From the NCBI RefSeq assembly GCF_030758295.1, contig NZ_CP132335.1, forward strand, positions 2,828,412 to 2,892,411: a stretch of DNA of 64,000 nucleotides, given 5' to 3'. The first letter of the stretch is position 1. The number at the start of each line of letters is the position of its first letter. This DNA is from Pararhizobium sp. IMCC21322 (GTDB lineage: Bacteria > Pseudomonadota > Alphaproteobacteria > Rhizobiales > GCA-2746425). Shown here in pieces: positions 9,990 to 27,858 of this stretch. The notes beneath the pieces are model-generated. The model was given only the letters and a program-made list of their open reading frames with translations, ran no database searches and was not told the DNA's origin. The translations under genes were made by a program, and so were the position numbers.

Positions 9990-11055
9990 ACTACAACGCA
10001 GAGACGAGCATTCAGCGTGGATGGCGCTGTTTTCACCTTTGATCGCTGTCGCATTGATGCTGGCGACTGGTGCTGTGCTTTTTGCAAGTCTGGGCATTGA
10101 TCCAGTCAAAGGACTGAGTGTCTACTTTCTGGAACCGCTGCAAAGCGCCTGGTCGCTTCAGGAACTTGTGGTCAAGGCAACGCCTTTGATCCTGATCGGT
10201 ATCGGCCTGTCGATCTGTTATCGCGCCAATATCTGGAACATCGGAGCTGAAGGTCAATTTGTTGCCGGTGCTCTGGCTGGCTCCTATTTTCCTATCATGA
10301 TGGTTGGTTGGGAAGGCCCATTTGTCTTCCCCGCAATGATAGCAGCCGGCATGGCGGGTGGCGCTTTGTTCGCGCTTATTCCGGCAGCTTTAAAAATTCG
10401 TTTCGGCGCCAATGAAATCCTGACCAGCCTTTTGCTGGTTTATGTGGCCCAGTTTTTACTGGATTGGCTGGTACGCGGTCCGTGGCGGGATCCGGAAGGG
10501 TTCAATTTTCCGGAAAGCCGTCTGTTTCCCAGTGACGCGGTAACGCCGCTGATCGTCGAAGGCGGCCGGATGCATATCGGTTTTCCGATTGCGCTCATAA
10601 TAGCTCTGTTGGCGGCCTTCTATCTGGCCCGTACCATTCACGGCTTTCAGATACAGGTCATTGGTGAATCGCCTCGTGCCGCTCGATTTGCCGGTTTCAG
10701 CCAGAGCAAAATGATCGTTTTTGCCTTTGCTGTTTCCGGTGCTTTGGCTGGTTTAGCCGGTATTCTTGAGGTGGCTGGTCCCATCGGGCAATTGCGACCG
10801 GTTATTTCACCGGGCTATGGCTTTACCGCCATCATCGTAGCCTTTCTGGGCCGGTTGAACCCGATCGGAATCGTTATTGCTGGCTTTGTTCTGGCTCTGT
10901 CATATCTGGGCGGCGAGGCGGCACAGGTTACGCTTGGAATTTCGGACAAGATCGCGCGGGTTTTCCAGGGGCTGCTGCTGTTTTACGTGCTGGCGTGTGA
11001 CACATTCATTGTCTACACCTTCCGCCGCATTGGCGTTGCCAGGGAGGCAAGCTGA
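9979..11055 (+). CDS. ABC importer permease 1, nucleoside/purine type
   Basis: Integral membrane subunit of the branched-chain-like permease family used by BMP-dependent importers. 358 residues, about eight to ten hydrophobic segments; IGIGLSICYRANIWNIGAEG and RFGANEILTSLLLVYVA are characteristic of the first permease of nucleoside systems. ATG 9979 has GGAGG six bases upstream and overlaps the ATPase gene by 11 bp; an in-frame GTG at 9961 is less likely. Stop and next start overlap (TGATG). Confidence 0.92.
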   Translation: MPFKLQRRDEHSAWMALFSPLIAVALMLATGAVLFASLGIDPVKGLSVYFLEPLQSAWSLQELVVKATPLILIGIGLSICYRANIWNIGAEGQFVAGALAGSYFPIMMVGWEGPFVFPAMIAAGMAGGALFALIPAALKIRFGANEILTSLLLVYVAQFLLDWLVRGPWRDPEGFNFPESRLFPSDAVTPLIVEGGRMHIGFPIALIIALLAAFYLARTIHGFQIQVIGESPRAARFAGFSQSKMIVFAFAVSGALAGLAGILEVAGPIGQLRPVISPGYGFTAIIVAFLGRLNPIGIVIAGFVLALSYLGGEAAQVTLGISDKIARVFQGLLLFYVLACDTFIVYTFRRIGVAREAS

Positions 11056-11975
11056 TGGAAATGTATGAAGCCATAATCCTGACCATCATCACCGCTGCAA
11101 CGCCATTGCTGTTGGCAGCATGCGGGGAATTGGTTGCAGAGCGCGCCGGTATCCTGAATCTGGGTGTTGAAGGTATGATGATCATGGGTGCCGTGGGTGC
11201 CTTTGCCGTCGCGTTCACAACCGGGTCTCCCTATTTGGGAATAGCTGCGGGCATTGCAGCAGGTGCTGCTGCATCGCTCCCCTTTGCTTTCCTCACCATA
11301 TCCATGGTCACCAATCAGGTGGCAACAGGACTTGCGCTTACAATTTTGGGCCTTGGCCTGTCTGGGATGATCGGTGATGCCTATATCGGGCAACCCGGCG
11401 TCAAGCTGCCTCCAATCAGCGTTGAGGGGTTATCTGATCTTCCCTATGTTGGGAAAATCCTGTTTTCCCAGGACGTGATTGTCTATGCTTCGATCTTCCT
11501 GTTGCTGTTTGTTTGGATTTTTCTCTTTAAAACCCGTGCGGGATTGTCGCTGAGAGCGGTTGGCGACAGCCATTCCTCCGCTCACGCATTAGGTGTCTCC
11601 GTGCGCAAAGTGCGCTATCTGGCCGTCATCTTTGGCGGAGCCTGTGCCGGACTGGCCGGGGCCTATCTGTCGCTGGTCTATACGCCGCAATGGACAGAGG
11701 GCATGACCGCTGGTCGTGGCTGGATCGCGGTGGTTCTGGTTGTCTTTGCAACATGGATGCCAGGACGGCTTTTGGCCGGTGCCTATCTGTTTGGGGCTGT
11801 GGCGATCCTTCAACTGCACGCACAGGCTGCAGGGGTCAATATTCCATCGCAGTTCCTGTCCAGCTTGCCGTATCTTGCCACGATAATTGTGCTTGTTTTG
11901 ATTTCCAGGAATCGTACTCTTGTGAAAAAGAATTCACCCGCATGCCTTGGCAAACCCTTCGTGCCTGATGTCTAA
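11055..11975 (+). CDS. ABC importer permease 2, nucleoside/purine type
   Basis: Second membrane subunit of the same importer, 306 residues. ERAGILNLGVEGMMIMGA is the hallmark of the second permease of BMP-type systems. The ATG shares a base with the stop of permease 1, so the two are translated together in a 1:1 ratio. A 48-bp gap leads to the binding-protein gene. Confidence 0.93.
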   Translation: MEMYEAIILTIITAATPLLLAACGELVAERAGILNLGVEGMMIMGAVGAFAVAFTTGSPYLGIAAGIAAGAAASLPFAFLTISMVTNQVATGLALTILGLGLSGMIGDAYIGQPGVKLPPISVEGLSDLPYVGKILFSQDVIVYASIFLLLFVWIFLFKTRAGLSLRAVGDSHSSAHALGVSVRKVRYLAVIFGGACAGLAGAYLSLVYTPQWTEGMTAGRGWIAVVLVVFATWMPGRLLAGAYLFGAVAILQLHAQAAGVNIPSQFLSSLPYLATIIVLVLISRNRTLVKKNSPACLGKPFVPDV

Positions 11976-12023
11976 TGTCAGGTGGGCGGAGCCAATTACT
12001 CATTTAATCAGGGAAATTTCTCT

Positions 12024-13106
12024 ATGAATCGTATTGCAAAAATACTTGCAGGGGTCATTACGCTCTCTGCGCTTGCACTGGCCGGACCGGTCCTTGCGGC
12101 AAGCCACGGAAAAACCAAGATCGGCTTTATCTATGTCGGACCCGTAGGCGATCATGGTTGGTCCTACCAGCACAATCAGGGACGCCTCGCCATTGAAGAA
12201 GCCTTTGGCGACAAGGTCGAAACCACATATGTGGAAAATGTATCGGAAGGTCCCGACGCGGAGCGCGCCATTGAACGTCTCGCCCGTGAAGGGTTCAACA
12301 TGATTTTCACCACGTCATTCGGGTACATGAACCCGACTGTGAAAGTGGCCGCAAAGTTCCCGGACATCTATTTCGAACACGCCACTGGTTATAAGCGTGC
12401 CGACAATGTTTCCACCTATTCGTCCCGTTTCTATGAAGGCCGCTACATCATCGGCCAGATTGCTGCGAAGGTCTCTGAAACCGGAACAGCCGGTTACATC
12501 GCCTCATTCCCGATTCCCGAAGTTGTGCGTGGCATCAACGCATTCATGCTGGGTGCGCAATCTGTTAATCCGGATTTCAAATTGAAAGTGGTTTGGGTCA
12601 ACACATGGTTTGATCCGGGCAAGGAAGCTGATGCTGCCAAGGCTCTGATCGATCAGGGCGTTGACGTAATTTCCCAGCACACTGATTCACCAGCGCCCCT
12701 GCAAGTAGCTGCAGAGCGTGGCGTCAAGGGATTTGGTCAGGCATCTGACATGATCAGATTTGCACCGGAAGCCCAGTTGACGTCCATCGTGGATGTTTGG
12801 GATGCCTATTACGTATCCCGCGTGCAGGCAGCCATGGATGGCACATGGGAATCAACTGACACCTGGGGTGGCCTGGATGCCGATATGGTTGAAATGGCAG
12901 CTTACACAAACCTTCCAGACGACGTTGCTGCTGAGGCTGCTGTCACGCAGGAATCCATCCGCAGTGGCCAGTTTCATCCCTTCACCGGGCCGATCTACAA
13001 ACAGGACGGTTCCTTGCTGGTAGGCGAGGGAGAGATTGTTGATGATGGCACGCTGCTTGGTATGAACTTCTACGTAAAAGGCGTTGATGGGGATCTCCCG
13101 CAATAA
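12024..13106 (+). CDS. BMP-family periplasmic substrate-binding protein (purine/nucleoside)
   Basis: Periplasmic receptor of the importer encoded just upstream. Residues 1-22 form a Sec signal peptide (MNRIAKILAG... ending VLAAS) with no lipobox cysteine, so it is soluble rather than a lipoprotein. The mature part opens with KIGFIYVGPVGDHGWSYQHN, the BMP/PnrA-family opening. 360 residues from ATG 12024 (GGGAAA upstream); longer in-frame starts would bury the signal peptide. Together with xdhABC and uraH it suggests import of oxidised purines for use as nitrogen source. Confidence 0.93.
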   Translation: MNRIAKILAGVITLSALALAGPVLAASHGKTKIGFIYVGPVGDHGWSYQHNQGRLAIEEAFGDKVETTYVENVSEGPDAERAIERLAREGFNMIFTTSFGYMNPTVKVAAKFPDIYFEHATGYKRADNVSTYSSRFYEGRYIIGQIAAKVSETGTAGYIASFPIPEVVRGINAFMLGAQSVNPDFKLKVVWVNTWFDPGKEADAAKALIDQGVDVISQHTDSPAPLQVAAERGVKGFGQASDMIRFAPEAQLTSIVDVWDAYYVSRVQAAMDGTWESTDTWGGLDADMVEMAAYTNLPDDVAAEAAVTQESIRSGQFHPFTGPIYKQDGSLLVGEGEIVDDGTLLGMNFYVKGVDGDLPQ

Positions 13107-14035: not shown

Positions 14036-14086
14036 CGCGTCGTTGTAGAATTTCCGTGGCTCCGGATGGCAGCCTGCATCACCAGT

Positions 14087-14959
14087 CTAGCGTTCGAACA
14101 CAACGGTGCGATGCTCATTTATGAAGACGCGGCGCTCCGCATGTAACTGAATTGCTGTCGACAGGACGCGTGCTTCAATTGCACGGCCTCTTGCCACCAG
14201 ATCATCGGCATTCAGGGCGTGTGTTACACGCTCCGCATCCTGTTCGATGATGGGTCCTTCATCCAGATCTGGCGTTACATAATGTGCCGTTGCACCAATC
14301 ATTTTCACACCTCGGTCATAGGCCCGGTGATAGGGTTTTGCGCCTTTGAAAGCGGGCAAAAACGAGTGGTGAATATTGATTATTTTGCCAAAATGTTTGG
14401 AACTGAAACTATCGGACAGGACTTGCATATATCGCGCAAGAACCACCAGTTCGGCCCCGGAGCGGGTCACAATGTCATCCAGCCGCATTTCCTGCTCGGT
14501 CTTGGTTTCCGGTGTGACTTTCAGCAAATGAAACGGAATTCCAAGACGTTCGACATCCGCCCGCGTTACGTCATGATTGGAGACAACTGCAACAATCTCG
14601 ATAGGCAGGACGCCGGTCTTTGTCCGGTAAAAGATATCCTGAAGGCAATGATCGAATTTGGACACCATGACGATACATTTGATTGGCGTCCCGTCCGTAA
14701 ACAGATGTGTTTCAGCATCAAATTTGTTAGCGAAACCAACGACCGCTTTTTGCAGATCTTCTAAAGAAACAGTGGCCGGTGCAGAAAATTCGACACGCAA
14801 AAAGAACTGTCCATTTCCATCTGCCCGTGTGGTTCCGGGGGCTGGTTGAAAGAACTGCGAGCTTTGGAGAATGTTGCATTCCCTGGCCGCCAGAATTTCA
14901 GACAAGCCAGCCACGATTCCAGGCCTGTCCGGACATGTCAGCGTCAATACGACGGTCAT
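14087..14959 (-). CDS. purU: Formyltetrahydrofolate deformylase
   Basis: Hydrolyses 10-formyl-tetrahydrofolate to formate and tetrahydrofolate, balancing one-carbon pools and supplying formate for purine synthesis. 290 residues: an N-terminal ACT-like regulatory domain (LTLTCPDRPGIVAGLSEIL) and a C-terminal formyltransferase fold with NIHHSFLPAFKGAKPYHRAY, ATAHYVTPDLDEGPII carrying the Asn, His and Asp of the active site. Start ATG 14959. Monocistronic by spacing. Could assist disposal of C1 units, but its distance from the moc-like genes makes that only a guess. Confidence 0.96.
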   Translation of the reverse strand: MTVVLTLTCPDRPGIVAGLSEILAARECNILQSSQFFQPAPGTTRADGNGQFFLRVEFSAPATVSLEDLQKAVVGFANKFDAETHLFTDGTPIKCIVMVSKFDHCLQDIFYRTKTGVLPIEIVAVVSNHDVTRADVERLGIPFHLLKVTPETKTEQEMRLDDIVTRSGAELVVLARYMQVLSDSFSSKHFGKIINIHHSFLPAFKGAKPYHRAYDRGVKMIGATAHYVTPDLDEGPIIEQDAERVTHALNADDLVARGRAIEARVLSTAIQLHAERRVFINEHRTVVFER

Positions 14960-15090
14960 AAGGTCTCTCTTTTGATCAGGAAATATGTGTTGGTCTTAAT
15001 GGAAAGCTCAGAAGAGTGCAAAAAATATCAACGGAAGAGTCCGCCCATTCTGTCTTTCTTTTCAAGACGATGCTGCAAAGGCCAAAACTG

Positions 15091-15104
15091 ATTTCAATTG
15101 AAAT
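15091..15104. promoter_or_regulatory. 14-bp palindrome upstream of purU
   Basis: ATTTCAATTGAAAT is perfectly self-complementary and lies 132 bp upstream of the purU start and just after the kinase gene end. Possible operator; A+T-rich palindromes also arise by chance. Confidence 0.25.
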
Positions 15105-15119
15105 TCAACTGCGATCCGC

Positions 15120-16628
15120 TCAAGGTTTTCTGGTGAGGGGCAGTGCATCAATTCTGTCATAGAATTGTTGTGAGGATTCATAGAGATCGGCGTAGACAGG
15201 CATCATTTCGTTGTAAAGTTCGGCCCATGCCGGTATCGGATTAAATTGCTGTCCGTAACGCACCATTCCACGCGTTGCGTCCTGGATGTCGGACTTGTTC
15301 CCGGATGCGACTGCCATCAGTATTGCCGCTCCAACAACGCCACATTCCAGCTCTTCGGGAACCAGATATGGTACGCCATACATACTGGCCTTTATGCTGA
15401 GCCAAAGCTCGGATTTTGCGCCGCCTGACGCGGCGACAATGCGATCCGGCCGTCCTGCGCCGCCTTCAACAGCCGGGAGCTTCTGCCGGACCGAAAAGGC
15501 AACACCTTCCAGAACAGCTCTATGTAAATCCGGCAGGTCGTGTGCCGCGGTCAATCCAAAAAACTGGGCGCGCGAATTGCTATGATTTCCAAACCGTTCT
15601 CCCGACAGGTAAGGCAGAAAGAAGAGGCCGTTAGAGCCTGCTTCTGCATGCGTGGCCAATTCTGCGACCTCTGCATAGTCTCTGCGATTGCCATGAAAGG
15701 CGCGTCTGGCCCAGCGCACAGCATCGCCGCCCGCATCAAGAAGCGTGAGGCTGCCCCAATTTCCCTCAACCGTTGCCACGTTTGACACTTCATCATTGAG
15801 CACGGGTGCGTCATGGACAAAGGTAATAATCGACGATGTGCCTGTGACATCAGAACCAAGGCCGGGCTTTGAGACACCTGACCCCAGTAAGGCCATCGGA
15901 TAATCCCCGGCACCCACCAAAACGGGAATTCCAGCCGGTAAACCCAAGAGCAGTGCGGTGTTTTGGTACAGCGTTCCAAGTACGTCTCCCGGGCTTTTGA
16001 TCTCTGGAAGCAGCCGTTTTGGAATGCCTGTCAATTTGATGAGTTGCTCTGACCAGGTCTTTGTTTTGCTGTCCATGAGATAACTCATGGAGGCTTCGGT
16101 AAAATCCTGCGCTCTTTCACCTGTCAATTTGAAATTAATCCAGTCTTTTGGCATTAAAACTGTGCTGGCCGATTCAATGGCCGCTGGGTCATTCTCCTGC
16201 AGCCAGAGCAGTTTGAACGCTGGCCAGGAGGTGGCTGGCATATTTGCTGTGATTGGGAGCAGATCAGCGGGGTGGACCCGAGCTGCAAATGCATCGACTT
16301 GGGGCTGTGTTCGTTTGTCATTCCAAAGCAGTGCTTCTGCCCGGGCCAGATTGCCATCATCGTCAATCAGAACTGAACCGTGCATTTGCCCACATGTACA
16401 TATGCATGCAACTCGGTCTGCAGCATTCTCAACTTTTGTCAGGACATCCTGAACACTCGCAATTGTGCCATCCCACCAATCCTGAGGACGTTGTTCGGAC
16501 CAGCCATGTTGAGGTACGATTTGCTCATGTTCCTTATGGCAAATCGCAACAATCTTGCCGGTCAGATCCACCAATGCTGCACGAATGCTTCCGGTGCCGA
16601 CATCAATTGCAAGATACAGATCACGCAT
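15120..16628 (-). CDS. FGGY-family carbohydrate kinase (xylulokinase-like)
   Basis: Cytoplasmic kinase phosphorylating a pentulose, polyol or related sugar. 502 residues as usual for XylB-like enzymes. Motifs: AIDVGTGSIRAALVD (phosphate-binding, residues 7-21), WSEQRPQDWW, CGQMHGSVLID, and near the C-terminus ASGGAKSELWLSIKA typical of FGGY signature 2. Start ATG 16628 overlaps the stop of a 31-codon ORF upstream (ATGCGTGA), implying coupled translation. Divergent from the cupin isomerase gene, with which it shares a promoter region containing two palindromic operators. D-xylulose is the default substrate guess, not shown. Confidence 0.85.
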   Translation of the reverse strand: MRDLYLAIDVGTGSIRAALVDLTGKIVAICHKEHEQIVPQHGWSEQRPQDWWDGTIASVQDVLTKVENAADRVACICTCGQMHGSVLIDDDGNLARAEALLWNDKRTQPQVDAFAARVHPADLLPITANMPATSWPAFKLLWLQENDPAAIESASTVLMPKDWINFKLTGERAQDFTEASMSYLMDSKTKTWSEQLIKLTGIPKRLLPEIKSPGDVLGTLYQNTALLLGLPAGIPVLVGAGDYPMALLGSGVSKPGLGSDVTGTSSIITFVHDAPVLNDEVSNVATVEGNWGSLTLLDAGGDAVRWARRAFHGNRRDYAEVAELATHAEAGSNGLFFLPYLSGERFGNHSNSRAQFFGLTAAHDLPDLHRAVLEGVAFSVRQKLPAVEGGAGRPDRIVAASGGAKSELWLSIKASMYGVPYLVPEELECGVVGAAILMAVASGNKSDIQDATRGMVRYGQQFNPIPAWAELYNEMMPVYADLYESSQQFYDRIDALPLTRKP

Positions 16629-16716
16629 CACTCAAAGCCTTTTTTGGTACGGCATCAAAGACACGAGTAAAAACTTTCTGATCATCTGTTTGTCCCGGAA
16701 ACGCGGCCATTGTCAT
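16621..16716 (-). CDS. 31-residue leader ORF coupled to the FGGY kinase
   Basis: Short frame with start ATG at 16716 and stop TGA at 16621-16623, the stop overlapping the kinase ATG. AGGGAG lies six bases before the start, a better ribosome site than any in front of the kinase. Encoded peptide begins MTMAAFPGQTDD and is not recognised. It could be a leader peptide that loads ribosomes for the kinase or the remnant of a lost gene. Confidence 0.5.
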   Translation of the reverse strand: MTMAAFPGQTDDQKVFTRVFDAVPKKALSDA

Positions 16717-16780
16717 GGCATTCTCCCTCACGTTTGAAGGCGACCATGACTCAAGGTTTCAGACAAATCAATCCGGATAT

Positions 16781-16793
16781 GTAGTTCAACTAC
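16781..16793. promoter_or_regulatory. Palindromic operator, copy 1 (kinase side)
   Basis: GTAGTTCAACTAC, a perfect 6-1-6 palindrome preceded by T, in the divergent promoter between the kinase and the cupin isomerase. Matches copy 2 at 16842. The form resembles sites of RpiR/HexR-type regulators, and an RpiR gene closes this module at 19528-20391. Confidence 0.65.
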
Positions 16794-16841
16794 TCTCACG
16801 TGCCTGAATAGGACACACATTGAATATTTCTGAAAATAAAT

Positions 16842-16854
16842 GTAGTAAAACTAC
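16842..16854. promoter_or_regulatory. Palindromic operator, copy 2 (isomerase side)
   Basis: GTAGTAAAACTAC, arms GTAGT and ACTAC around AAA, 17 bp before the cupin isomerase start. Its centre is 61 bp from copy 1, close to six helical turns, so one regulator could hold both sites in a loop. Confidence 0.65.
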
Positions 16855-16871
16855 GGATAATTGGAGGCGCT

Positions 16872-17492
16872 ATGTACATTGAACCAACCACTCACACCGT
16901 CGACAGCATGACGGGGAGCCTGTCCAATTCAACAGGGCGATATCAAAAGAAAATATCTGATCTCAAAGGGATATATGCGGACAATGTTACGTTCTCACGC
17001 ATGTGTGCCGATGATCCGGACAGGATTGTTTATGAGGTTTGCGAAGTGCGCCCGCAAGCTGAGTCAGGCGATCTGATTTTCGGAACGACCCACATGGAGC
17101 CCGGAATAGTTGGCAATGAGTTCTTCGTCACAAGAGGACACATCCACGCGCGCGCAAATCGGCCAGAAACCTATTACGGTGAAAGTGGGAATGGGCTCAT
17201 GCTGTTGGAATCGCCACACGGCGACATTCGGATTATGGAAGTCAAACCAAAGACCCTCATTTATGTTCCACCCATGTGGATTCATCGCTCAGTCAATGTT
17301 TGCAATACGCCATTGGTCATGAGCTTTTGTTACCCGGTTGATTCTGGGCAGGATTACGAAATTATCGCGCAGTCCGGAGGCATGGCTGTCCGTATCGTCG
17401 CGGATGGAAGCGGATGGAAGGCGATTGACAACACAGACTACAAGCCGCGCACTGAAGAACAAATTGAGACAATCCACGCGACCCGGGACTGA
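16872..17492 (+). CDS. Cupin-type glucose-6-phosphate isomerase
   Basis: Metal-dependent phosphosugar isomerase of the archaeal-type cupin family (PF06560 class), unrelated in fold to the usual Pgi. 206 residues. Metal ligands are visible in FVTRGHIHARANRPETYYG (H90, H92, E99) and VPPMWIHRSVN (H138). ATG 16872 is preceded by GGAGG. First gene of the + strand module and directly behind operator copy 2. In this context it may isomerise a pathway phosphosugar other than glucose 6-phosphate. Confidence 0.85.
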   Translation: MYIEPTTHTVDSMTGSLSNSTGRYQKKISDLKGIYADNVTFSRMCADDPDRIVYEVCEVRPQAESGDLIFGTTHMEPGIVGNEFFVTRGHIHARANRPETYYGESGNGLMLLESPHGDIRIMEVKPKTLIYVPPMWIHRSVNVCNTPLVMSFCYPVDSGQDYEIIAQSGGMAVRIVADGSGWKAIDNTDYKPRTEEQIETIHATRD

Positions 17493-17597
17493 CAAATGAT
17501 CGCTTTTGATGCGCTGCCAAACCATGATGTCGTTCCAGTCACTAGAAACCATTACCAAGGCGGCTTCTGATCTGATCGCTAAGCTTCGAGGCACCCT

Positions 17598-18548
17598 ATG
17601 AGCTACACACCCGCAGAGATCCCAACTTTCTATTTTATCGGAGTCACAACGCAGTTCTCATCAATCATGAAGGTCTTTCCGAAATGGGCTGCCCATCTGG
17701 GTCTGGGTGAAGTGGAAATCAAAGGCATCGATTTCCCACCTCATGACAAACCACAAAACTACAGAGATGCAGTCGCGTTCATTAAATCCGACCCGCTCTC
17801 TTTGGGAGCGCTTGTGACAACTCACAAACTTGATCTGTATGCTGCGTGCAAGGACATGTTCGACAATGTCGATAATCATGCTGATCTGATGGCAGAAACA
17901 AGCTGTCTTTCAAAATTGAATGACAAGTTGATCTGTCACGCGAAAGATCCCATTTCGTCCGGCCTGTCTCTTGATGGCTTCCTTGCCGAAAATCATTTTT
18001 CCAAAACGGGCGCAGAGGTTTTTTCGATGGGGGCAGGCGGCTCTACCATCGCTTTGACATGGCATCTTACGCAGCCTTCCAGAGGAGCTGACCGGCCGTC
18101 CCGGATTGTGATTTCAAACAGGTCGCAACCGAGAGTGGATCACGTTCGTAGTATTCATGAACAACTGGGACACGGCATTCCTGTTGAATATGTTTTGGCG
18201 ACAAGTCCGGACCATAATGATGAAATTCTGCACGGTTTAAAGCCTGGAAGTCTGGTGATCAATGCGACAGGCCTTGGGAAAGACGCCCCCGGCTCACCTT
18301 TATCCAATGCTGCTCGGTTTCCCGAAAACTCCATTGTTTGGGATCTCAACTACCGTGGCGAATTGGTGTTTCTGGATCAGGCACGAGCCCAAGCATCCGC
18401 AAATCAAATATCAATTGAAGATGGGTGGTCGTATTTCATTCACGGGTGGACACAGGTCATTGGTGAAGTTTTTCATATTTCGATACCGACGTCAGGGCCT
18501 GAGTTTGATAAAATCGCTGAAATTGCCTCTGCAGCCAGTGGACGGTAG
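17598..18548 (+). CDS. Shikimate-dehydrogenase-like NAD(P) oxidoreductase, divergent
   Basis: 316 residues with the AroE architecture: substrate-binding N-terminal half and Rossmann C-terminal half. GALVTTHKLDLY carries the catalytic-lysine position (VTxHK), CHAKDPISSG matches the Asp region, FSMGAGGSTIALTWHL is the dinucleotide loop and INATGLGKD replaces NATPLGM. Sequence around the shikimate carboxylate site differs from real AroE, and the neighbours are sugar genes, so the substrate is probably a carbohydrate acid or keto-polyol rather than shikimate. ATG 17598 with GAGGCACC upstream. 105 bp after the isomerase. Confidence 0.75.
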   Translation: MSYTPAEIPTFYFIGVTTQFSSIMKVFPKWAAHLGLGEVEIKGIDFPPHDKPQNYRDAVAFIKSDPLSLGALVTTHKLDLYAACKDMFDNVDNHADLMAETSCLSKLNDKLICHAKDPISSGLSLDGFLAENHFSKTGAEVFSMGAGGSTIALTWHLTQPSRGADRPSRIVISNRSQPRVDHVRSIHEQLGHGIPVEYVLATSPDHNDEILHGLKPGSLVINATGLGKDAPGSPLSNAARFPENSIVWDLNYRGELVFLDQARAQASANQISIEDGWSYFIHGWTQVIGEVFHISIPTSGPEFDKIAEIASAASGR

Positions 18549-18634
18549 TCACGATCTTTTACTCCTGAAGTAATCGATGGTGAACATCTGAAACAAACCC
18601 TCTGGCCAAAACGCGCTCAAAGGACTGAAAGCCA

Positions 18635-19507
18635 ATGCGGATTGAGGAGAATATCTGCTGGCCAAGTCCCGGCTCTGCCGGGCTTGTCTGGCTTGGCCAG
18701 GCAGGATTCTGGATTGAAACAGGTCAGCACAGAATCCTGGTCGATCCCTATTTATCCGACAGCCTGGCACAAAAATACAAAGGGGAGCCAAATGAGCATC
18801 AACGGATGATGCCACCCCCGTGCAGAATTGAGGACGTACCGCGCCCGGATATCATCCTGATTACACATGCACATACAGATCACATGGATCCCGACACGCT
18901 GGCACCCCTATGCACACGATACCCTGACGTCCCATTTGTTGTGCCGATATCCAGGTTTGAAGAAGCACAAAGTCGGATCGGGAAGAGCGCGAAACTTATT
19001 GGCGTTGATGCAGATGAAACGATCACACCCATTGACGGACTGACCCTAACTGTCTTTCCCGCAGCCCACGAAGAACGCACATATGACGATAACGGGCGCG
19101 ATGTCTTTTTGGGTTTCGGGATTGAATCAGATGGTCTCAAGATACTTCATCCAGGCGATACCATTCCATTTCCGGGACTTTTCGAACGGATCAGCAAGTT
19201 TGCGCCAGATATCGCCCTGCTTCCTGTCAATGGCCGGGACAAGACAAGGTTGGCGCAAGGAATTCCCGGCAATATGAGCCTTGCGGAAGCAATTGAGCTT
19301 GGTCGGAACATAGCGGTCATCATCCCACACCACTGGGGTATGTTTTCCTTCAACACCATTGATCCGGAATTGATCGTAGTGGCAGCAAATGAATGCACAA
19401 CGTTACAGATTGTGCTTCCGGTTTGTGGCAAGTTGCTGCGCATACACCCGGCAGATGCAGAGAACCGGCTCAGGGTCTCCATGGAGGTTTCCAGGAGCAA
19501 GACGTGA
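18635..19507 (+). CDS. Metallo-beta-lactamase-fold hydrolase, UlaG-like lactonase
   Basis: Cytoplasmic hydrolase of the UlaG group; UlaG itself opens L-ascorbate 6-phosphate lactone. 290 residues. The metal-binding HAHTDHMD is at 78-85, AAHEER, HPGDT and IIPHHWGMF supply the other ligands, and VWLGQAGFWIETG starts the fold. ATG 18635 with AGGACTG upstream. Last gene of the + strand module, ending 20 bp from the convergent RpiR gene. A sugar-phosphate lactone made by the dehydrogenase upstream would be a natural substrate; inferred. Confidence 0.8.
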   Translation: MRIEENICWPSPGSAGLVWLGQAGFWIETGQHRILVDPYLSDSLAQKYKGEPNEHQRMMPPPCRIEDVPRPDIILITHAHTDHMDPDTLAPLCTRYPDVPFVVPISRFEEAQSRIGKSAKLIGVDADETITPIDGLTLTVFPAAHEERTYDDNGRDVFLGFGIESDGLKILHPGDTIPFPGLFERISKFAPDIALLPVNGRDKTRLAQGIPGNMSLAEAIELGRNIAVIIPHHWGMFSFNTIDPELIVVAANECTTLQIVLPVCGKLLRIHPADAENRLRVSMEVSRSKT

Positions 19508-19527
19508 GCAATGGATCCGCTGCGGTT

Positions 19528-20391
19528 TTACAAAGTGTCGGTTGATCGGACATCAGCGAGAAACCGCTTCATGTCGGCTATGCGCAGCCTGTGATCGGGC
19601 GACTTCTTGAGCGCAACAATCGTTGATAGAATATCGACAATGACCAAGGCAGCCACGCGCGAAATTTGCGGTGTGTACTGATCTGTGTTTTCGAGTGTTT
19701 CGACAAGTAATCCGACATTACAAAATCGCAGCAATGGGCTGTTCGATCCGGTAATTCCAATTGTCTTTGCACCGTGTGCGCTGGCCGCCCGCATGGTTTG
19801 AGCGACCTCTTTGGTTGAGCCAGAGTTTGATATGGCAACCAAAACATCGCCGTCCCTCATCATGGAAGCGGCTATCAGCATCTGATGTGCATCGACTATT
19901 GCACTGCACGGAACGCCAAAAAGAGGGAATTTCTGCTGGGCATCCATAGCGACGATGGAGGACGCGCCCAAACCTATAAAGTGTATGTTTTTTGCATTGT
20001 GGAGAATGTCCACAGCTGCATCCAACGCCTTCAGATCCAGCCTGCTGCGCACCCAATCCAAACTCGTGAGATTGAAATCAAAGATCTTTCCCACGACCGT
20101 TTCAACATCGTCATCATCAGAGATCTCAGCTTGTGACGTGGACAAACCAAAAGCCAGAGATCGCGCCAGCTTGATTTTCATATCCTGAAATCCATCACAT
20201 CCGATGGCATTGCAGAACCGTATCACGGTGGGCTCGCTGACGTCAGCCAATTTCGCCAGATCAGCGAGTTTCAACTCAGTCGCGCTGTTCGGATCTTCCA
20301 GAATTTTTGCCGCAACTTTCCGGTCCGATTTGCGAAGTCTATCCAATGAGCGGGAGATGTGTTCCAGAAGGTTTGGCGAACCACTAATCAA
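19528..20391 (-). CDS. RpiR-family transcriptional regulator (HTH + SIS)
   Basis: DNA-binding repressor/activator with a phosphosugar-sensing SIS domain. 287 residues: N-terminal RpiR HTH (LADLAKLADVSEPTVIRFCNAIGCDGFQDM cut here into its parts: LADLAKLADVSEPT and VIRFCNAIGCDGF, about residues 40-72) and C-terminal SIS fold (FIGLGASSIVAMDAQQKF, AISNSGSTKEVAQTM). Start is TTG 20391 with GGGAG seven bases upstream; no in-frame ATG precedes it. Convergent with the lactonase gene and probably the regulator of the 15120-19507 genes through the GTAGT/ACTAC palindromes. Confidence 0.9.
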   Translation of the reverse strand: MISGSPNLLEHISRSLDRLRKSDRKVAAKILEDPNSATELKLADLAKLADVSEPTVIRFCNAIGCDGFQDMKIKLARSLAFGLSTSQAEISDDDDVETVVGKIFDFNLTSLDWVRSRLDLKALDAAVDILHNAKNIHFIGLGASSIVAMDAQQKFPLFGVPCSAIVDAHQMLIAASMMRDGDVLVAISNSGSTKEVAQTMRAASAHGAKTIGITGSNSPLLRFCNVGLLVETLENTDQYTPQISRVAALVIVDILSTIVALKKSPDHRLRIADMKRFLADVRSTDTL

Positions 20392-20619: not shown

Positions 20620-21423
20620 TTATTCGAGAGTTGTTCCATATGGCACGATAGTGGAAACGGACTGAAGAAATTCGGGCGTGCCACAGGCAAAACGAAGCTT
20701 GGATGTCAGATCTGTCTTGGTCCAGTCAACAGTGCTGTGAATGCCAATTTGCTCAAGAATCGGCAAAGCCGCCATCAAATCCCAGGTCGACTCGCCAATG
20801 CCGAGATACCCGTCGACCTGCCCAAGCGCCACCTCAATCAACGACACAGTGGCCGAGCCACAGCAACGGAACGACATGCGCGCGTCTTCCAGCACATAAC
20901 GGAGTGTTTGCAGCCGTTGTTCAACTGCAATCGTCGGATGAAAGCCAACGCCACATGCAGCGCGGTGTTCGTTCAGCCCGGCTCGCTGCTCCATCACGGC
21001 ACCGTTGAGCGTGCTGGGGTATCCAACGCCGCCAATCAATGTCTGAGACCGAACAGGCACGTGTATGACGCCGAAGGTGGGGCAATAATTCTCATAAAGA
21101 CCAATAGAAACGGCCCACTGATCGCCTCCGCGAACAAAGTTGAATGTGCCATCAATGGGATCTACCACCCAGACGCGGCCCGTTGTGCCCTGACGCGCGG
21201 CTCCCTCTTCGCCGAATATGCCATCGTCGGGGAAAGCCTGCCCAAGACGCTCGGTCAAAAAGCGTTCTACCTCCTGGTCTGCAGCGGTTACCAGGTCGAG
21301 ATGGCCCTTGGATTCAACGGGTACCGTTGCCAGTGTCTCGAAATGGGACATTGCAATGGCCCCCGCCTCGCGAGCCAGAGTTTCAACGATCGTGGCGTTA
21401 TCTTGCACAGAAGTTTGGGTCAA
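20620..21423 (-). CDS. Inositol-monophosphatase-family phosphatase
   Basis: Mg-dependent phosphomonoesterase, 267 residues. Metal-site motifs: GEE at 71-73, DPIDGTFNF at 88-96 and the C-terminal WDLMAALPILEQ. Start is TTG 21423, overlapping the stop of the phosphodiesterase gene (TTGA), so it is translationally coupled. Last gene of a seven-gene operon that begins with the DeoR regulator. Likely removes phosphate from the imported and cleaved compound (glycerol phosphate, inositol phosphate or similar); other IMPase-family activities such as histidinol phosphatase fit the context less well. Confidence 0.85.
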   Translation of the reverse strand: MTQTSVQDNATIVETLAREAGAIAMSHFETLATVPVESKGHLDLVTAADQEVERFLTERLGQAFPDDGIFGEEGAARQGTTGRVWVVDPIDGTFNFVRGGDQWAVSIGLYENYCPTFGVIHVPVRSQTLIGGVGYPSTLNGAVMEQRAGLNEHRAACGVGFHPTIAVEQRLQTLRYVLEDARMSFRCCGSATVSLIEVALGQVDGYLGIGESTWDLMAALPILEQIGIHSTVDWTKTDLTSKLRFACGTPEFLQSVSTIVPYGTTLE

Positions 21424-22199
21424 AGTTCAACATACCTTGTGTGAATGGAAACGTTTTTTTCATCCGATATCCGATGAATGAAGTAGGCGTAGGGCTCGTT
21501 TACTGTTGTGGGCTCGGGCTCGGCAGGATCAAGCGTCAACGCGTGCTGGAAAGCAGGGCCACCACTAACCGCGCAGAAAATGCCATTCCACAGCGTTTGA
21601 AACGGTCGATGAATATGCCCTGAAAGGATGCGAATTGGCCCTTGATGGGCCACGACCATGCGTTCAAACGCGTCGCGCCCGTCCTGCAAGGCCATGTGAT
21701 CAAGCGGAACCATGGTTGAAGGAAATGCGGGGTGGTGCATCAAAATCAGAGTCAGTTCACTAGAGGGTGCAGCCAGTCTTCCCTCAAGCCAGGAAAGCTG
21801 TGTCGGACTGAGCGCGCCCTGGACCTGGCCGTCCAACAGCGTATCGAGGGCGAGGATACGAATGTCTTTGAAGCGGGCTTCGTAGTTCAGAAAGGGGCCC
21901 GGTTCAAAGGGCAGCTTGTCCTTGAACATGGCGCGAAGGCCAGCGCGTTTGTCGTGGTTGCCAGGAACAACGAACATCGGAACATCGATCGGCGCCAGAA
22001 TGTCGGCCAAAAGCGCATAATCTTCACTGGACCCGCCATCAGTCAGGTCGCCCGTGAACATGATTGCCTCGATCTTCGGCGTGAACGCAGCAATATCAGC
22101 GATGACCTTGCGCGCGGCATCAGCCGCATCCGCGCGAACGACTGTTGTTTCCGCAGCATTCGCGAAGACATGGAAATCCGAGATATGTGCGATGAGCAT
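21420..22199 (-). CDS. Class III metallophosphodiesterase (GpdQ/CpdA-like)
   Basis: Two-metal calcineurin-like phosphodiesterase of 259 residues. All metal motifs are present: D8-x-H10 (ISDFH), GDLTD with D51, GNHD with N81 and H82, LMHHPAF and GHIHRP. The family hydrolyses glycerophosphodiesters or cyclic nucleotides; placed behind a Ugp-type importer and ahead of an IMPase-type phosphatase, glycerophosphodiester hydrolysis is the better guess. ATG 22199, 52 bp after the second permease. Confidence 0.85.
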   Translation of the reverse strand: MLIAHISDFHVFANAAETTVVRADAADAARKVIADIAAFTPKIEAIMFTGDLTDGGSSEDYALLADILAPIDVPMFVVPGNHDKRAGLRAMFKDKLPFEPGPFLNYEARFKDIRILALDTLLDGQVQGALSPTQLSWLEGRLAAPSSELTLILMHHPAFPSTMVPLDHMALQDGRDAFERMVVAHQGPIRILSGHIHRPFQTLWNGIFCAVSGGPAFQHALTLDPAEPEPTTVNEPYAYFIHRISDEKNVSIHTRYVEL

Positions 22200-22251
22200 A
22201 CCGTGATCCTGATTGTTTGTTTATGCGCGCCACAAGCGGTGCATAGGACGC

Positions 22252-23064
22252 CTATTTGATGCCTGCACGCATGAAATTAGCCACGAATTGGCGTTGGAAG
22301 ATTATGAACGCAATGATCAATGGCGCGGTCGTCATAAGCGTGGCCGCATTGACCAGTGACCATTCGACACCACTATCCACGGTCGCGAAAACGCTCAGTC
22401 CGACCGTCAGAGGCCGCACTTCGGGCGAATTCGTGACAATCAGCGGCCAGAGAAAATTGTTCCAGTGAAAACTGATCGAAACCAGAGAATAGGCAAGATA
22501 AATTGGCCAGGCCAAGGGAACGTAGATATTCCACAGCACTCGCCAGGCTCCAGCGCCTTCGATCTGGGCAGCTTCGTCCAGAGATTTCGGCACGGTGAGA
22601 AACGTTTGTCGCAGCAGAAATATGCCGAACGCTGACGTCAAGTAGGGCAGGGCGATACCGATGATTGTGTCGGTCAGTCCGACGCGCGACAATGTCAGAT
22701 AGTTTTCGACGATCAGGATTTCAGGTGAGATCAGCAGCTGAACCATGATCAGGGCAAACAGAAAGCCAGCCCATCTGAATTTATAGCGCACGAAGGCGTA
22801 CGCGACGAGCGTACACAGAACCAGATTGGCGATAAGAATGATGGTGATCAGGATCAGCGTATTGAAGAAATATACTGAAAAAGGTGCTGCCTGCCAGGCC
22901 TCCAGGAAATTCGCGATGGTCCATGGCGCATCCCACTGAAAATTAGCTGAGTATTTTTCATCATGAAACGCTGTCCAGACAGAATAAATGAAAGGCAGCG
23001 CCCAGAGCGCAGCGATGACTGCCGCAAATGTCGACAGCAGGATTTTGTTCAAACCATTGCTCAT
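22252..23064 (-). CDS. ABC importer permease, UgpE/MalG type
   Basis: Second inner-membrane subunit of a carbohydrate-class-1 importer, 270 residues, six hydrophobic segments. The EAA loop that docks the ATPase is EAAQIEGAGAWRVLWNIYVPL (read as EAAQIEGAGAWRVLW then NIYVPL), around residues 174-194. ATG overlaps the stop of the first permease (ATGA). Same operon as the regulator, ATPase and binding protein upstream. Confidence 0.92.
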   Translation of the reverse strand: MSNGLNKILLSTFAAVIAALWALPFIYSVWTAFHDEKYSANFQWDAPWTIANFLEAWQAAPFSVYFFNTLILITIILIANLVLCTLVAYAFVRYKFRWAGFLFALIMVQLLISPEILIVENYLTLSRVGLTDTIIGIALPYLTSAFGIFLLRQTFLTVPKSLDEAAQIEGAGAWRVLWNIYVPLAWPIYLAYSLVSISFHWNNFLWPLIVTNSPEVRPLTVGLSVFATVDSGVEWSLVNAATLMTTAPLIIAFIIFQRQFVANFMRAGIK

Positions 23065-23936
23065 TGATAATGCGCCTTCCTGTTCAAAACCCAGAATTGG
23101 AAGATAGCTAGAATTCCAAGCATGATGACCATCAACACCGTCAAAGTGGCGCCATAAGCAAAGTCTCTTTGGCGGAATGTGACTTCGTAAATGTAGTAGA
23201 GCAGCAGCGCGCTTGAGTTGTTGGGGCCGCCCTCTGTCATGACAATGACGTGGTCGACAAGACGGAAGGCATTGATGAGCGCATTGACCGCTACGAAAAT
23301 CGTTGTAGGGCGGAGCAGAGGCAGGACAACATCTATGAAAATCCGGACGGAACCAGCGCCTTCAAGTTTTGCCGCGTCCTTCAGGTTTGTGGGTACTGAC
23401 TGCAAAGCTGCCAGATAGAATATCATGAACAGGCCTGCCTCTTTCCAGACAGCCACAAACATCATCGAGGCCAAAGACGTTTCGGTGCTGCCGAGAAAAT
23501 TGATAGACGGCAATCCGAAGATACCCAGTATCTGGGATGCAAGCCCGATACCCGGCGCGTAGAAGAACAGCCAGATGTTTGCGACAGCAATCATTGGCAA
23601 CATGGTTGGCATGAAGAATGACAAGCGCATCAGTGTTGTACCGGGGAGCCTTGAATTTACCAGCAACGCCATCCCGATCGCCAAGCCAATTGCCAGCGGT
23701 ATCGTTCCCAGCGCATAGATCGTGCTGTTCACAAGCACTTGTGCAAGCCTGTCGTCTTCAAAAAGTGCCTGATAGTTCTCAGCCCCGACGAAACGCGACG
23801 GACGGCGCGAACTGGCGTTGTTCCAAAATGAATTGATCAGGGCCTGAATGGCGGGATAATGCGTGAACGCCACCAGCAGGGAGCACGGAACGCCCAGCAT
23901 GATGATTGCCAGCCCTATGGGCAGTCGTTTATTCAT
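23061..23936 (-). CDS. ABC importer permease, UgpA/MalF type
   Basis: First inner-membrane subunit of the importer, 291 residues with six membrane segments; the ATPase-docking loop is KDAAKLEGAGSVRIF, about residues 183-197. ATG 23936 lies 156 bp after the binding-protein stop, and that gap contains a 10-bp hairpin, so permease expression is probably lower than that of the binding protein. Confidence 0.92.
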   Translation of the reverse strand: MNKRLPIGLAIIMLGVPCSLLVAFTHYPAIQALINSFWNNASSRRPSRFVGAENYQALFEDDRLAQVLVNSTIYALGTIPLAIGLAIGMALLVNSRLPGTTLMRLSFFMPTMLPMIAVANIWLFFYAPGIGLASQILGIFGLPSINFLGSTETSLASMMFVAVWKEAGLFMIFYLAALQSVPTNLKDAAKLEGAGSVRIFIDVVLPLLRPTTIFVAVNALINAFRLVDHVIVMTEGGPNNSSALLLYYIYEVTFRQRDFAYGATLTVLMVIMLGILAIFQFWVLNRKAHYQ

Positions 23937-24042
23937 GATGCGCCGCCTGGTGCAGATTTCATGATTGTTGAGTCATTCTCAAATGGTTCAATAATCATAA
24001 AACATGCCCCGGATTCCTAATAAGTTACATGATGAAAGAAAT

Positions 24043-24071
24043 GCTCCGCGCACGCTTCATATGCGCGGAGC
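24043..24071 (-). terminator. Intercistronic hairpin between binding protein and permease genes
   Basis: Stem GCTCCGCGCA / TGCGCGGAGC (10 bp, 9-base loop) followed on the minus strand by ATTTCTTTC. Placed directly after the binding-protein gene, it likely trims readthrough and protects the upstream mRNA rather than ending the operon. Confidence 0.7.
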
Positions 24072-24092
24072 CTGTTTCGTCAGATGTCAGCC

Positions 24093-25379
24093 TTACTGAT
24101 ATTCGCCAAGCACCTTGTCGGCGCCCTCTTGAGCCTCTGCCAGAGCGGCCGCTGGTTCAGCGTTGCCAGTGACGGCACTCTCGATTGCGTCGACCAGATA
24201 TTGCGTCACCTTGGCGCGCTGGAAGGTTGCGAACTCACGTTCGGCATATGCAAGTTGGTCCAACGCGACCAGCGCCTGTGGCAAGCGTTCGGTGTATGCC
24301 TTCATCGCTGGCGTTTCCCAAGTGTCAGGACGCGGGGCTACATAGCCAGTTGCGATGCTCCAGCGAGCTGCACTTTCGGGCGATGTCATGAAACGGATAA
24401 AGTCCATTGCCGCTTCGCGCTCCTCATCTGTTGTTTCCTTGAAGATGTAAAAATTACCGCCGCCGATTGGTGCGCCGGGCCCATCTCCACCTGGAAGAAA
24501 GCCAACACCCCAGTCAAACTCAGCGTTTTCCTCAATGAAGGCCAAATTACCGGTCGACGTCCACATGGAGGCCGTCTGCCCTTCGAGGAACGCTTTTGGT
24601 GTGTCACCCCAGGTGATGCCGCCCGGTGCCATGACTTCCTGCTTCGCCAACTCCAGCAGGAATTCCAGCGAAGCGACTGTTGCAGGTGTGTTGATGCGGG
24701 CTTCTGTTCCTGTCTCTGTCGTCAGAACATCACCTTTGGATACTACCAAACCGCCAAAGAGCCATGCGCCACCAAGACCCAACGTTGGAATGCGTGTGCC
24801 CCAGCGGGTCACGTTTCCGTTGTCGTCCTTGACTGTCAGTGCCTTGCCAGCCTCAATCATCTCATCCCATGTGGCAGGCGGTGCCTCGGGGTCCAGACCG
24901 GCTTCGCGGAACGCATCTTTATTATAGTAAAACACGGGTGTTGAGCGCTGAAACGGGATTGCGTAGGTCTTGCCCTCGAACTGGGCATCCTTCATGAAAC
25001 CCGGGTAGAAACCGGCCATCCATTCCTTGTCTGCGTCCGACGTCGCAACATCGGAAATTGGAAGGATCACATCCTCTTCGATCAGCGTGAAAAGATCGAT
25101 GGAAAGCAATACGGCAACCTGTGGCGGTTGTCCTGCATTTGCGGCGGTCAATGCTTTGGTCGTCGTCTCTTCATAATTGCCCGCGTAAACCGCCTTCACT
25201 GTGTGCTGGGGATTCTTCGCTGCCCATTCGTCGGTCAATTCCTGAATGGTTGCAACCGCAGGCGCGTTTACGCCAACTGGAAAGTAGAATTCAAGATCGG
25301 CTGCAAAAAGAGCTGTAGAGCTAACCCCCATAAGGCCAGCGATGCCGAACGTTATTGCATGGGAATTCCGGAGTTTCAT
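24093..25379 (-). CDS. ABC importer substrate-binding protein, UgpB-like
   Basis: Periplasmic receptor, 428 residues, with a Sec signal peptide ending around ALFAADLEF. Family features of the glycerol-3-phosphate-binding UgpB group: YAGNYEETTTKALTAANAG near the start and PFQRSTPVFYYNKDAFREAG (a substrate-contact region), then PPATWDEMIEAGKAL. Start ATG 25379 with GAGGAAAC upstream. Order regulator-ATPase-receptor-permease-permease-phosphodiesterase-phosphatase suggests the ligand is glycerol 3-phosphate, a glycerophosphodiester or a related phosphate ester. Confidence 0.9.
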   Translation of the reverse strand: MKLRNSHAITFGIAGLMGVSSTALFAADLEFYFPVGVNAPAVATIQELTDEWAAKNPQHTVKAVYAGNYEETTTKALTAANAGQPPQVAVLLSIDLFTLIEEDVILPISDVATSDADKEWMAGFYPGFMKDAQFEGKTYAIPFQRSTPVFYYNKDAFREAGLDPEAPPATWDEMIEAGKALTVKDDNGNVTRWGTRIPTLGLGGAWLFGGLVVSKGDVLTTETGTEARINTPATVASLEFLLELAKQEVMAPGGITWGDTPKAFLEGQTASMWTSTGNLAFIEENAEFDWGVGFLPGGDGPGAPIGGGNFYIFKETTDEEREAAMDFIRFMTSPESAARWSIATGYVAPRPDTWETPAMKAYTERLPQALVALDQLAYAEREFATFQRAKVTQYLVDAIESAVTGNAEPAAALAEAQEGADKVLGEYQ

Positions 25380-25430
25380 TGTTGTTTCCTCTTCTTTTTC
25401 TGAATCGTCGGCGGTTTGTCCACCGATCTT

Positions 25431-27271: not shown

Positions 27272-27858
27272 TTTCACCTCACCGGGTACTCCTCTGAGGC
27301 GAGGAGAATTTCGTCAATTTTTTGCAAGTTTAAGCAGATATAAACATAAGTGATCATAATAGTGCATCTTCAATCACGCAAGACAAATCTCGCCGAACTG
27401 TTGTTGTGGTGCCAGGGCGCGGCATTCAGGGCGGGGTAATCTGGCTCACTCTCACCACACGCCACGCACCAAAAGCCGCACAGGGCTTCGCGTGTCGGAA
27501 CATTGAAAAAATCATGATGTGTGCTTGCAAAGCGAACTTGAAGAGATTGAGTTCCCGGCGCAGTGCTTTAGTTGTGGTGACATCTTCTGCTCACTAATGG
27601 TTGAGCTTAGGCAAGCATTCAGGTGCCGATATACAATCGACATTCCCACATAAAAACGCTGAGGTAGTCTGCTTGGGATTCATCCACCTGAGGTGGTCAC
27701 AGACGCTGATGGCGATGAATGGTTAGCAATTTCCAAGATTGCATTTTTGATTTTTCTTTTCCATAGTCGGTGAGGCAGTGAGTGTGTTCGCAGATCGAAA
27801 GACGTAGGTTTTGAGAAACAGACACTCTGCCATTGCCGCTTTCACATGGGAGAAAACT
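27272..27858. other. 587-bp divergent intergenic region
   Basis: Divergent promoters for the DeoR operon (left) and the first ribose-type importer (right). No convincing gene. Contains a perfect palindrome CCACCTGAGGTGG at 27684-27696 that sits between ATTCATC (27678-27684) and GATGAAT (27714-27720), and a short GCAAT/ATTGC hairpin followed by Ts at 27726-27748. A 63-codon frame at 27406-27597 has no ribosome site or recognisable product. Confidence 0.5.
27684..27696. promoter_or_regulatory. 13-bp palindrome upstream of the first ribose-type importer
   Basis: CCACCT-G-AGGTGG, 162 bp before the binding-protein start. Candidate operator; the regulator could be the RpiR protein at 33804 or the LacI protein at 43458. 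No second copy was noticed. Confidence 0.35.

Follow-up and report, generated by a model that had tools for sequence, protein, structure and literature searches.

In the Entner-Doudoroff pathway (Zwf, Pgl, Edd, Eda) a sugar-6-phosphate is oxidized to a lactone, the lactone is hydrolyzed, and an aldolase of the 2-keto-3-deoxy-6-phosphogluconate (KDPG) type splits a six-carbon phospho-keto acid. Parts of other described systems are related to the genes discussed here: UlaG, of the L-ascorbate (Ula) pathway, is a phospho-lactone hydrolase, cupin-type phosphoglucose isomerases (PGIs) occur in Pyrococcus and Thermococcus, and the RpiR-type regulator HexR responds to KDPG. We analyzed a gene cluster at positions 15120–20391 of a 64,000-nucleotide stretch of Pararhizobium sp. 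IMCC21322 (contig NZ_CP132335.1; the whole stretch is called the window), encoding an FGGY-family kinase, a cupin isomerase, an AroE-like protein, a UlaG-fold hydrolase and an RpiR-type regulator. We tentatively read this cluster, at somewhat less than an even chance, as a reduced version of an undescribed, widespread module for phosphosugar oxidation, the full form of which would lead from the kinase to an aldolase. The scheme would share with the Entner-Doudoroff pathway the steps named above, and differs from it in that the module has the AroE-like protein for Zwf, a hydrolase of the UlaG or phosphotriesterase (PTE) type for Pgl, and a D-2-hydroxyacid dehydrogenase (D2H) in the Edd slot. 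The locus has the following features.

15120..16631, minus strand: FGGY-family sugar kinase (FGGY_N 198.9 bits, FGGY_C 90.2 bits; nearest model xylulokinase XylB, 352.5 bits, cut-off 380.25)
16632..16871 (240 bp), no strand: divergent promoter region between the kinase and isomerase operons
16780..16793, plus strand: operator-like palindrome TGTAGTTCAACTAC, a perfect match of TGTAGTNNAACTAC
16841..16854, plus strand: operator-like palindrome TGTAGTAAAACTAC, approximately 30 bp 5' of the isomerase start
16872..17492, plus strand: cupin-type phosphoglucose-isomerase (GPI) family protein (PF06560, 187.8 bits, cut-off 20.7)
17496..17543, plus strand: remnant of a KDPG-type aldolase gene, 16 codons of its N-terminal part (MIAFDALPNHDVVPVT compared with MNIFDTLSNHGVVPVI)
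17598..18548, plus strand: AroE-like putative NADP-dependent sugar-phosphate dehydrogenase of the shikimate-dehydrogenase fold
18635..19507, plus strand: UlaG-fold metallo-beta-lactamase (MBL) hydrolase, putative phospholactonase (Lactamase_B_2, 79.1 bits)
19528..20391, minus strand: RpiR/HexR-like regulator (HTH_6 and SIS domains; HexR model 255.1 bits, cut-off 296)

All five open reading frames are intact, and the five families named in a first-pass annotation of the sequence hold. A shared divergent promoter, also claimed there, is found for the kinase and the isomerase operon, but it does not serve the RpiR gene, which runs convergently to the MBL gene. The names "UlaG-like" and "AroE-like" are correct at the fold level, although neither protein reaches a curated cut-off.

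Genome contigs were scanned with the AroE-like protein, giving 99 confirmed relatives, and 80 of these 99 contigs were analyzed. The relatives in these 80 contigs (46–89% identity) span about ten phyla, with members of the Alpha- and Gammaproteobacteria, Planctomycetota, Hydrogenedentes, Bacteroidota (Cyclobacteriaceae), Spirochaetes, Bacillota, Chloroflexi, Truepera, Microbacterium and one Lokiarchaeia metagenome-assembled genome (MAG), taxonomy being as given in the record names. The loci are not phylogenetically independent, and since many of them are MAGs, an isolated unexpected taxon may reflect a binning error. The grouping thus recurs far outside close strains. Its occurrence is sporadic, as expected of an accessory catabolic operon: the AroE-like gene is carried by 6 of 289 genomes in the class of the window, 13 of 199 in its order and three of the five same-genus genomes listed, and it was also found in 15 plasmid records. 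The first-pass annotation knew of no described pathway that joins the five families, and the open-access literature (subscription papers were not covered) likewise yielded no description of the gene set, whether searched directly or by way of the lactonase, the cupin PGI, rhizobial galactitol and tagatose loci, 5-ketofructose reductase or hydroxypyruvate-releasing routes.

Co-occurrence was determined by tblastn (family queries, E ≤ 1e-8; matches that covered less than 40% of the query were discarded) in 87 loci, which comprise the 80 contigs, six of the 15 plasmid hits and the window. Besides the AroE-like gene (87), these loci contain the cupin (70), an FGGY kinase (57), a zinc alcohol dehydrogenase (37), a Gfo/Idh/MocA protein (25) and an RpiR regulator (14). 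AroE-like and GPI genes lie at most 1.5 kb apart in 60 of the 87. A hydrolase of the MBL family is present in 28 loci and one of the PTE family in 27, and no locus has both. The relatives add a D2H (58 loci) and a KDPG-type aldolase (43 loci), both absent in the window, so that the phospho-sugar acid first proposed as the product is probably not the end point. If the count is restricted to the 45 loci for which 17 kb or more was fetched, the cupin is present in 44, the FGGY kinase in 39, the D2H in 38, an MBL or PTE hydrolase in 35 and the aldolase in 28. Judged by these gene contents, the window cluster is a trimmed form of a larger conserved module and not a local oddity.

The plasmid copies examined (Rhizobium, Sinorhizobium, Pararhizobium, Lichenicola and Marinovum, all annotated) have the gene order cupin, eda (absent in locus L108), "shikimate dehydrogenase", dehydrogenase, MBL and SIS-type regulator. 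The AroE-like protein is annotated as shikimate dehydrogenase in all six plasmid records viewed, and the dehydrogenase that follows mostly as phosphoglycerate dehydrogenase. Genes for a sugar ABC transporter and for an FGGY kinase, usually divergent, lie in the same loci, and the rhizobial plasmids often carry GldA-like or SDR dehydrogenases as well. Kinases of the window type (54–68% identity) adjoin the module in L017, L018, L019, L021 and L032.

From these contents we infer a scheme, including its substrate, reaction order, oxidized position and cofactor. The FGGY kinase would phosphorylate the terminal hydroxyl of a ketose, which in many relatives may be derived from polyols or other sugars by the neighboring dehydrogenases, and the cupin PGI-family enzyme would convert the ketose-6-phosphate to an aldose-6-phosphate. 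The AroE-like protein would oxidize C1 with NADP+ to give an aldonolactone-6-phosphate, and the UlaG-fold hydrolase, or the PTE-family protein in Bacillota, would open the lactone to an aldonate-6-phosphate. In full versions of the module the D2H would oxidize C2 to a 2-keto-aldonate-6-phosphate, from which the KDPG-type aldolase would release a three-carbon keto acid (hydroxypyruvate if the C3 hydroxyl is retained) and glyceraldehyde-3-phosphate. For the window and its close relatives L015 and L016, these two last steps would have left the operon, and paralogues, or Entner-Doudoroff enzymes encoded elsewhere, would have to take them over. If the scheme is true, a catabolic module occurs in organisms as different as rhizobia, roseobacters, gut Lachnospiraceae, Treponema MAGs and Planctomycetes while its pathway is absent from the open-access literature searched.

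The AroE-like protein has no Pfam match at E ≤ 0.001 and scores weakly against the NCBIfam models of shikimate dehydrogenases (30.7–41.4 bits, cut-offs 200–413; 31.8 bits against a cut-off of 200.2 for TIGR00507). The genome encodes a separate AroE at 359073, which at 207.3 bits is over the TIGR00507 cut-off, and two further paralogues. The AlphaFold model of the AroE-like protein (predicted local distance difference test, pLDDT, 94.1) has shikimate dehydrogenases as its best folds in the PDB, with the 5-ketofructose reductase 7cok at rank 6; this reductase was also found by profile match. Residues were mapped onto AroE by alignment to the paralogues of the genome itself. Lys77 and Asp117, invariant in all 42 aligned sequences, correspond to AroE Lys65 and Asp102, which we take to be the catalytic pair. 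Of the positions that presumably bind shikimate in AroE (Ser14, Ser16 and Asn86), Ser14 is kept as Ser21, whereas Ser16 is replaced by Ile23 and Asn86 by Ser102, each in 42 of 42 sequences. Lys228 and Arg253 are invariant in the same alignment. An NRS motif at 174–176 (Asn174 in 38, Arg175 in 42 and Ser176 in 41 of the 42) resembles what we take to be the NADP-binding NRT of AroE and would suit NADP(H). The protein thus shares the fold, the Lys/Asp pair and the NADP-binding motif with AroE and 5-ketofructose reductase, and differs from AroE in its scores, in the replaced recognition positions (HSxSP and Asn86) and in the invariant Lys228 and Arg253. As the catalytic pair is kept and shikimate contacts are replaced, it is probably a dehydrogenase of the shikimate-dehydrogenase fold that acts on another substrate.

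That this fold can act on sugars follows from TM-KFR, a 5-ketofructose reductase described as an NADPH-dependent relative of shikimate dehydrogenases (PMC7954740). When a pyranose-6-phosphate is laid onto shikimate, C5-CH2OP, O5, C1-OH, C2-OH and C3-OH would map onto shikimate C1-COO, C2, C3-OH, C4-OH and C5-OH, respectively, so that oxidation of the equivalent hydroxyl would give a lactone. The same reductase can also be read differently: the AroE-like protein might be a keto-sugar (phosphate) reductase, or a secondary-alcohol dehydrogenase acting on a ring or chain ketone, which forms no lactone, with the hydrolase receiving an ester or lactone from another enzyme. Shikimate dehydrogenases themselves reduce a ring ketone, 7cok is of the same fold, and TM-KFR is NADPH-dependent. 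The identity to 7cok (17–18%) is, however, no higher than that to the other shikimate-dehydrogenase folds listed (13–19%), and in the module genomes that have no Zwf match (see below) the lactonase would need another source of sugar-phosphate lactone. We consider this reductase role possible though doubtful.

The MBL protein scores 23.5 bits against the UlaG model (cut-off 306), on which ground the L-ascorbate pathway was rejected; the other nine proteins scanned match no Ula enzyme model. Its structural model (pLDDT 89.9) has UlaG (2wym) as the best fold match (rank 1), with NAPE-PLD and UPF0173 hydrolases close behind, and the ligand set of the MBL fold (HxHxDH plus later His/Asp; H78, H80, D82, H83, H145, D175 and H233) is invariant in 21 of 21 sequences. 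As modeled, the protein is a UlaG-type MBL-fold hydrolase at the fold level and a putative phospholactonase. For its counterpart in Bacillota, of which one PTE member was scanned, the nearest named model is the phospho-furanose lactonase NF045706 (108.5 bits, well below the cut-off of 630) and the nearest solved structure is PDB 3pnz. Two unrelated hydrolases, both related to phospholactonases, alternate in one module, which is the best evidence for a lactonase step.

The cupin protein matches the cupin PGIs in the PDB with E-values down to 4.4e-43. Its residues H90, H92, E99 and H138, presumably metal ligands by alignment with the Pyrococcus PGI, are invariant in 23 of 23 sequences, and Thr87, Gly89 and Tyr101, which we take to form the phosphate site, are conserved. 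It thus resembles the cupin PGIs of Pyrococcus and Thermococcus in family, ligands and phosphate site. Together, the invariant cupin ligands, the Lys/Asp dyad kept with loss of shikimate recognition, and the exchange of UlaG-fold for PTE hydrolases support in part the sequence of phosphorylation, isomerization, oxidation by the AroE-like protein and hydrolysis that the first-pass annotation had put forward.

Genome contents were compared in 20 hand-picked module genomes (that of the window and 19 others; not a random draw). A PGI of the PF00342 family is over its cut-off in all 20, the window genome included. Here the module differs from the archaeal systems, as its cupin coexists with a second PGI, and the cupin is therefore unlikely to be the housekeeping enzyme. 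Zwf (PF02781) had no match in nine of the 20. Edd is over its cut-off in three, all Alphaproteobacteria and the window genome among them; 15 of the 17 others have the module aldolase. In the module aldolase the catalytic Lys/Glu (Glu40 and Lys128) and the TGG motif are invariant in 22 of 22 aligned sequences. Glycerate kinases, of one or the other of two families, were found in 19 of the 20 module genomes and in 9 of 14 control genomes. These contents fit a route that proceeds without dehydration and releases a three-carbon hydroxy-keto acid.

They also bear on the view of the module as an ordinary feeder of the Entner-Doudoroff pathway, in which the ketose would pass through fructose-6-phosphate and glucose-6-phosphate to 6-phosphogluconate, and from there to Edd and Eda. 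The window genome would allow this, as Zwf, Edd and Pgi are mutually adjacent near 4.573–4.578 Mb and a generic Eda is also present; the loss of the operon's own aldolase and the HexR-like regulator agree with it. Against it are the many module genomes that lack an Edd over the cut-off yet hold the module aldolase, the redundancy that a second PGI and a second dehydrogenase and lactonase would represent, and the D2H, which is left without a role. A mere feeder function is accordingly rather unlikely.

A more specific form of our preferred scheme is a dehydratase-free counterpart of the Entner-Doudoroff pathway, composed of an AroE-fold sugar-6-phosphate 1-dehydrogenase, a phospholactonase, a D2H acting at C2, and a KDPG-type aldolase that cleaves a 3-hydroxy-2-keto acid to hydroxypyruvate and glyceraldehyde-3-phosphate. 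We regard this specific form as unlikely, if slightly less so than the reductase role above. As the C2 stereocenter would be lost by oxidation and C3 and C4 parted by cleavage, rare ketohexoses and polyols could all be channeled through such a route, in about ten phyla. If the oxidation scheme in general holds, the module would provide a rare-sugar or polyol route to organisms without an identified Edd (and, in 9 of 20, without an identified Zwf), a sugar-phosphate function for a clade of the shikimate-dehydrogenase fold, and a role for a cupin-type PGI that accompanies the ordinary enzyme.

Several points weigh against the oxidation scheme. Sugar activity is not general in this fold, because a C. 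pasteurianum relative of the shikimate-dehydrogenase-type 5-ketofructose reductase is reported to be inactive on 5-ketofructose (PMC7954740). The mutual exclusion of MBL and PTE hydrolases is largely phylogenetic, as all PTE loci except L094 belong to Bacillota by their record names. Of the 45 long loci, ten show neither lactonase in the flank that was fetched, and the aldolase is missing from 17. The D2H occurs more widely than the lactonase, as would also suit another order of reactions. PF00342 scores are low (61–84 bits) in 12 of the 20 genomes, and the 17 genomes without Edd over the cut-off all hold lower-scoring proteins of the IlvD/Edd family, some of which could be phosphosugar-acid dehydratases. 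The glycerate-kinase contrast with the control genomes, which were not matched by taxonomy, is weak (Fisher p = 0.03), and the release of hydroxypyruvate by a KDPG-type aldolase is assumed. Finally, the D2H and aldolase genes are absent from the window operon, so that the last two steps cannot be claimed as its function; the best D2H paralogue in the window genome has 37% identity and the best Eda 47%.

The absence of these two genes from the operon was established by tblastn. The in-frame aldolase remnant of 16 codons, 10 of whose 16 residues are identical to the start of the L017 aldolase, lies between the cupin and AroE-like genes, where eda stands in relatives, and where it begins in L017, L019 and L032. 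Its best ungapped score was matched by one of 1000 base shuffles of the gap. The trace is weaker in L015, and none is recognizable in L016. For the D2H, a remnant was sought at 18549–18634, where the best ungapped score was matched by 11 of 300 shuffles and no significant trace was found. Such losses could mean that the operon in this genus is a decaying remnant without pathway function, in keeping with an aldolase reduced to a few codons, a D2H that is gone and an AroE-like gene carried by only some of the same-genus genomes listed. All five retained genes are nevertheless intact, their dN values against L015 and L016 (0.02–0.15) are well below dS (0.32–1.46), and both operators are kept in these relatives. 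By this comparison purifying selection acts on the five genes; decay is very improbable, the least probable of the alternatives considered, and the trimmed operon is probably still in use.

Only two places in the 5.25-Mb genome match TGTAGTNNAACTAC perfectly; they lie 61 bp apart in the divergent promoter. Within the window, six matches with at most two mismatches were found where 1.07 were expected. In 10 of the 14 RpiR-bearing loci, similar palindromes (at most two mismatches) lie upstream of the cupin match at a distance of up to 450 bp, each of these 10 loci having at most one elsewhere. In L015–L021, L107, L108 and L112 the distance from such sites to the GPI match is 27 to 49 bp; L018 has the palindromes although no RpiR was detected there. 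No such site was found upstream of the GPI match in L032, L109, L110 and L111, where an RpiR relative is present; in L109, sites do occur at other positions, and one stands 42 bp ahead of the gene that opens the GPI-containing operon. Two further places in the window genome match with one mismatch, next to what look by eye, from the sequence, like unrelated transporter and regulator genes. They were treated as chance and not as sites of a second regulon: a reversed-pattern control gave 63 matches (at most one mismatch) against 6, and therefore one-mismatch sites carry no weight. The case for the operators rests on the two perfect matches, the count in the window and the conservation.

HexR is the best model for the regulator, and the TGTAGTNNNACTACA palindrome resembles the HexR box. 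The window regulator differs from HexR-type regulators in its score below the cut-off and in that its genome has no other perfect copy of the operator. A HexR-like regulator would repress both divergent units through the two palindromes, and by analogy its relationship to HexR hints at a phospho-keto acid as effector.

Beyond the RpiR gene and on the same strand, window positions 20620–27277 (minus strand) encode an inositol monophosphatase (IMPase), a calcineurin-like phosphodiesterase, a Ugp-like ABC transporter (UgpB-like binding protein, 155.9 bits, cut-off 411; UgpE-like permease, 113.9 bits, cut-off 297) and a DeoR/GlpR-type regulator (26492–27277). This set is kept in L015 and L016 and possibly serves the uptake of a phosphorylated or phosphodiester substrate. 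An RpiR and IMPase pair like that of the window (28 and 33% identity) follows the module in L111 of Shinella (15511–17231).

Such neighbors, together with the MocA proteins of other loci, are points in favor of a cyclitol (inositol-type) pathway, for which the Thermotoga inositol pathway is the model: MocA and a zinc dehydrogenase would make a diketocyclitol, the MBL protein would open its ring, and the kinase would phosphorylate the product. L035 has a MocA protein (IolG, 279 bits, cut-off 355) and a zinc alcohol dehydrogenase (IolM, 170.2 bits, cut-off 450) beside the kinase and AroE-like genes, an arrangement found in many loci. Both are under their cut-offs, however, and the window region has no MocA or zinc alcohol dehydrogenase match, nor has any of the six plasmid copies a MocA. 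No IolN model matched the MBL protein, though the library may not contain IolN, and the PTE exchange, the cupin PGI and the aldolase would be left unexplained. Ring opening of a ketoinositol by the MBL protein was set aside, and a cyclitol pathway appears improbable.

A levoglucosan-dehydrogenase-like MocA protein is encoded near the module in L029 (6661–8691; 394.4 bits, cut-off 650), with homologues of 62–74% identity in L024, L031, L035, L040, L065 and L092, often with a partner of the AP_endonuc_2 family; it is a possible entry from 3-keto-glycosides. Directly 3' of the MBL gene in L035 is a D-psicose 3-epimerase (14050–14922; 402.7 bits, over the cut-off of 300), whose cluster is found in seven loci. 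Levoglucosan and psicose routes were both rejected for the module as a whole, as neither the LgdA-like dehydrogenase nor the epimerase is common to all loci. A split transketolase pair adjoins the module in L037, a Dorea MAG (14196–15985). Upstream in the window lies an ABC system (8385–13106, plus strand) whose binding protein is of the Bmp family (PF02608, 196.7 bits); L015 has similar genes next to the module, and L016 does not.

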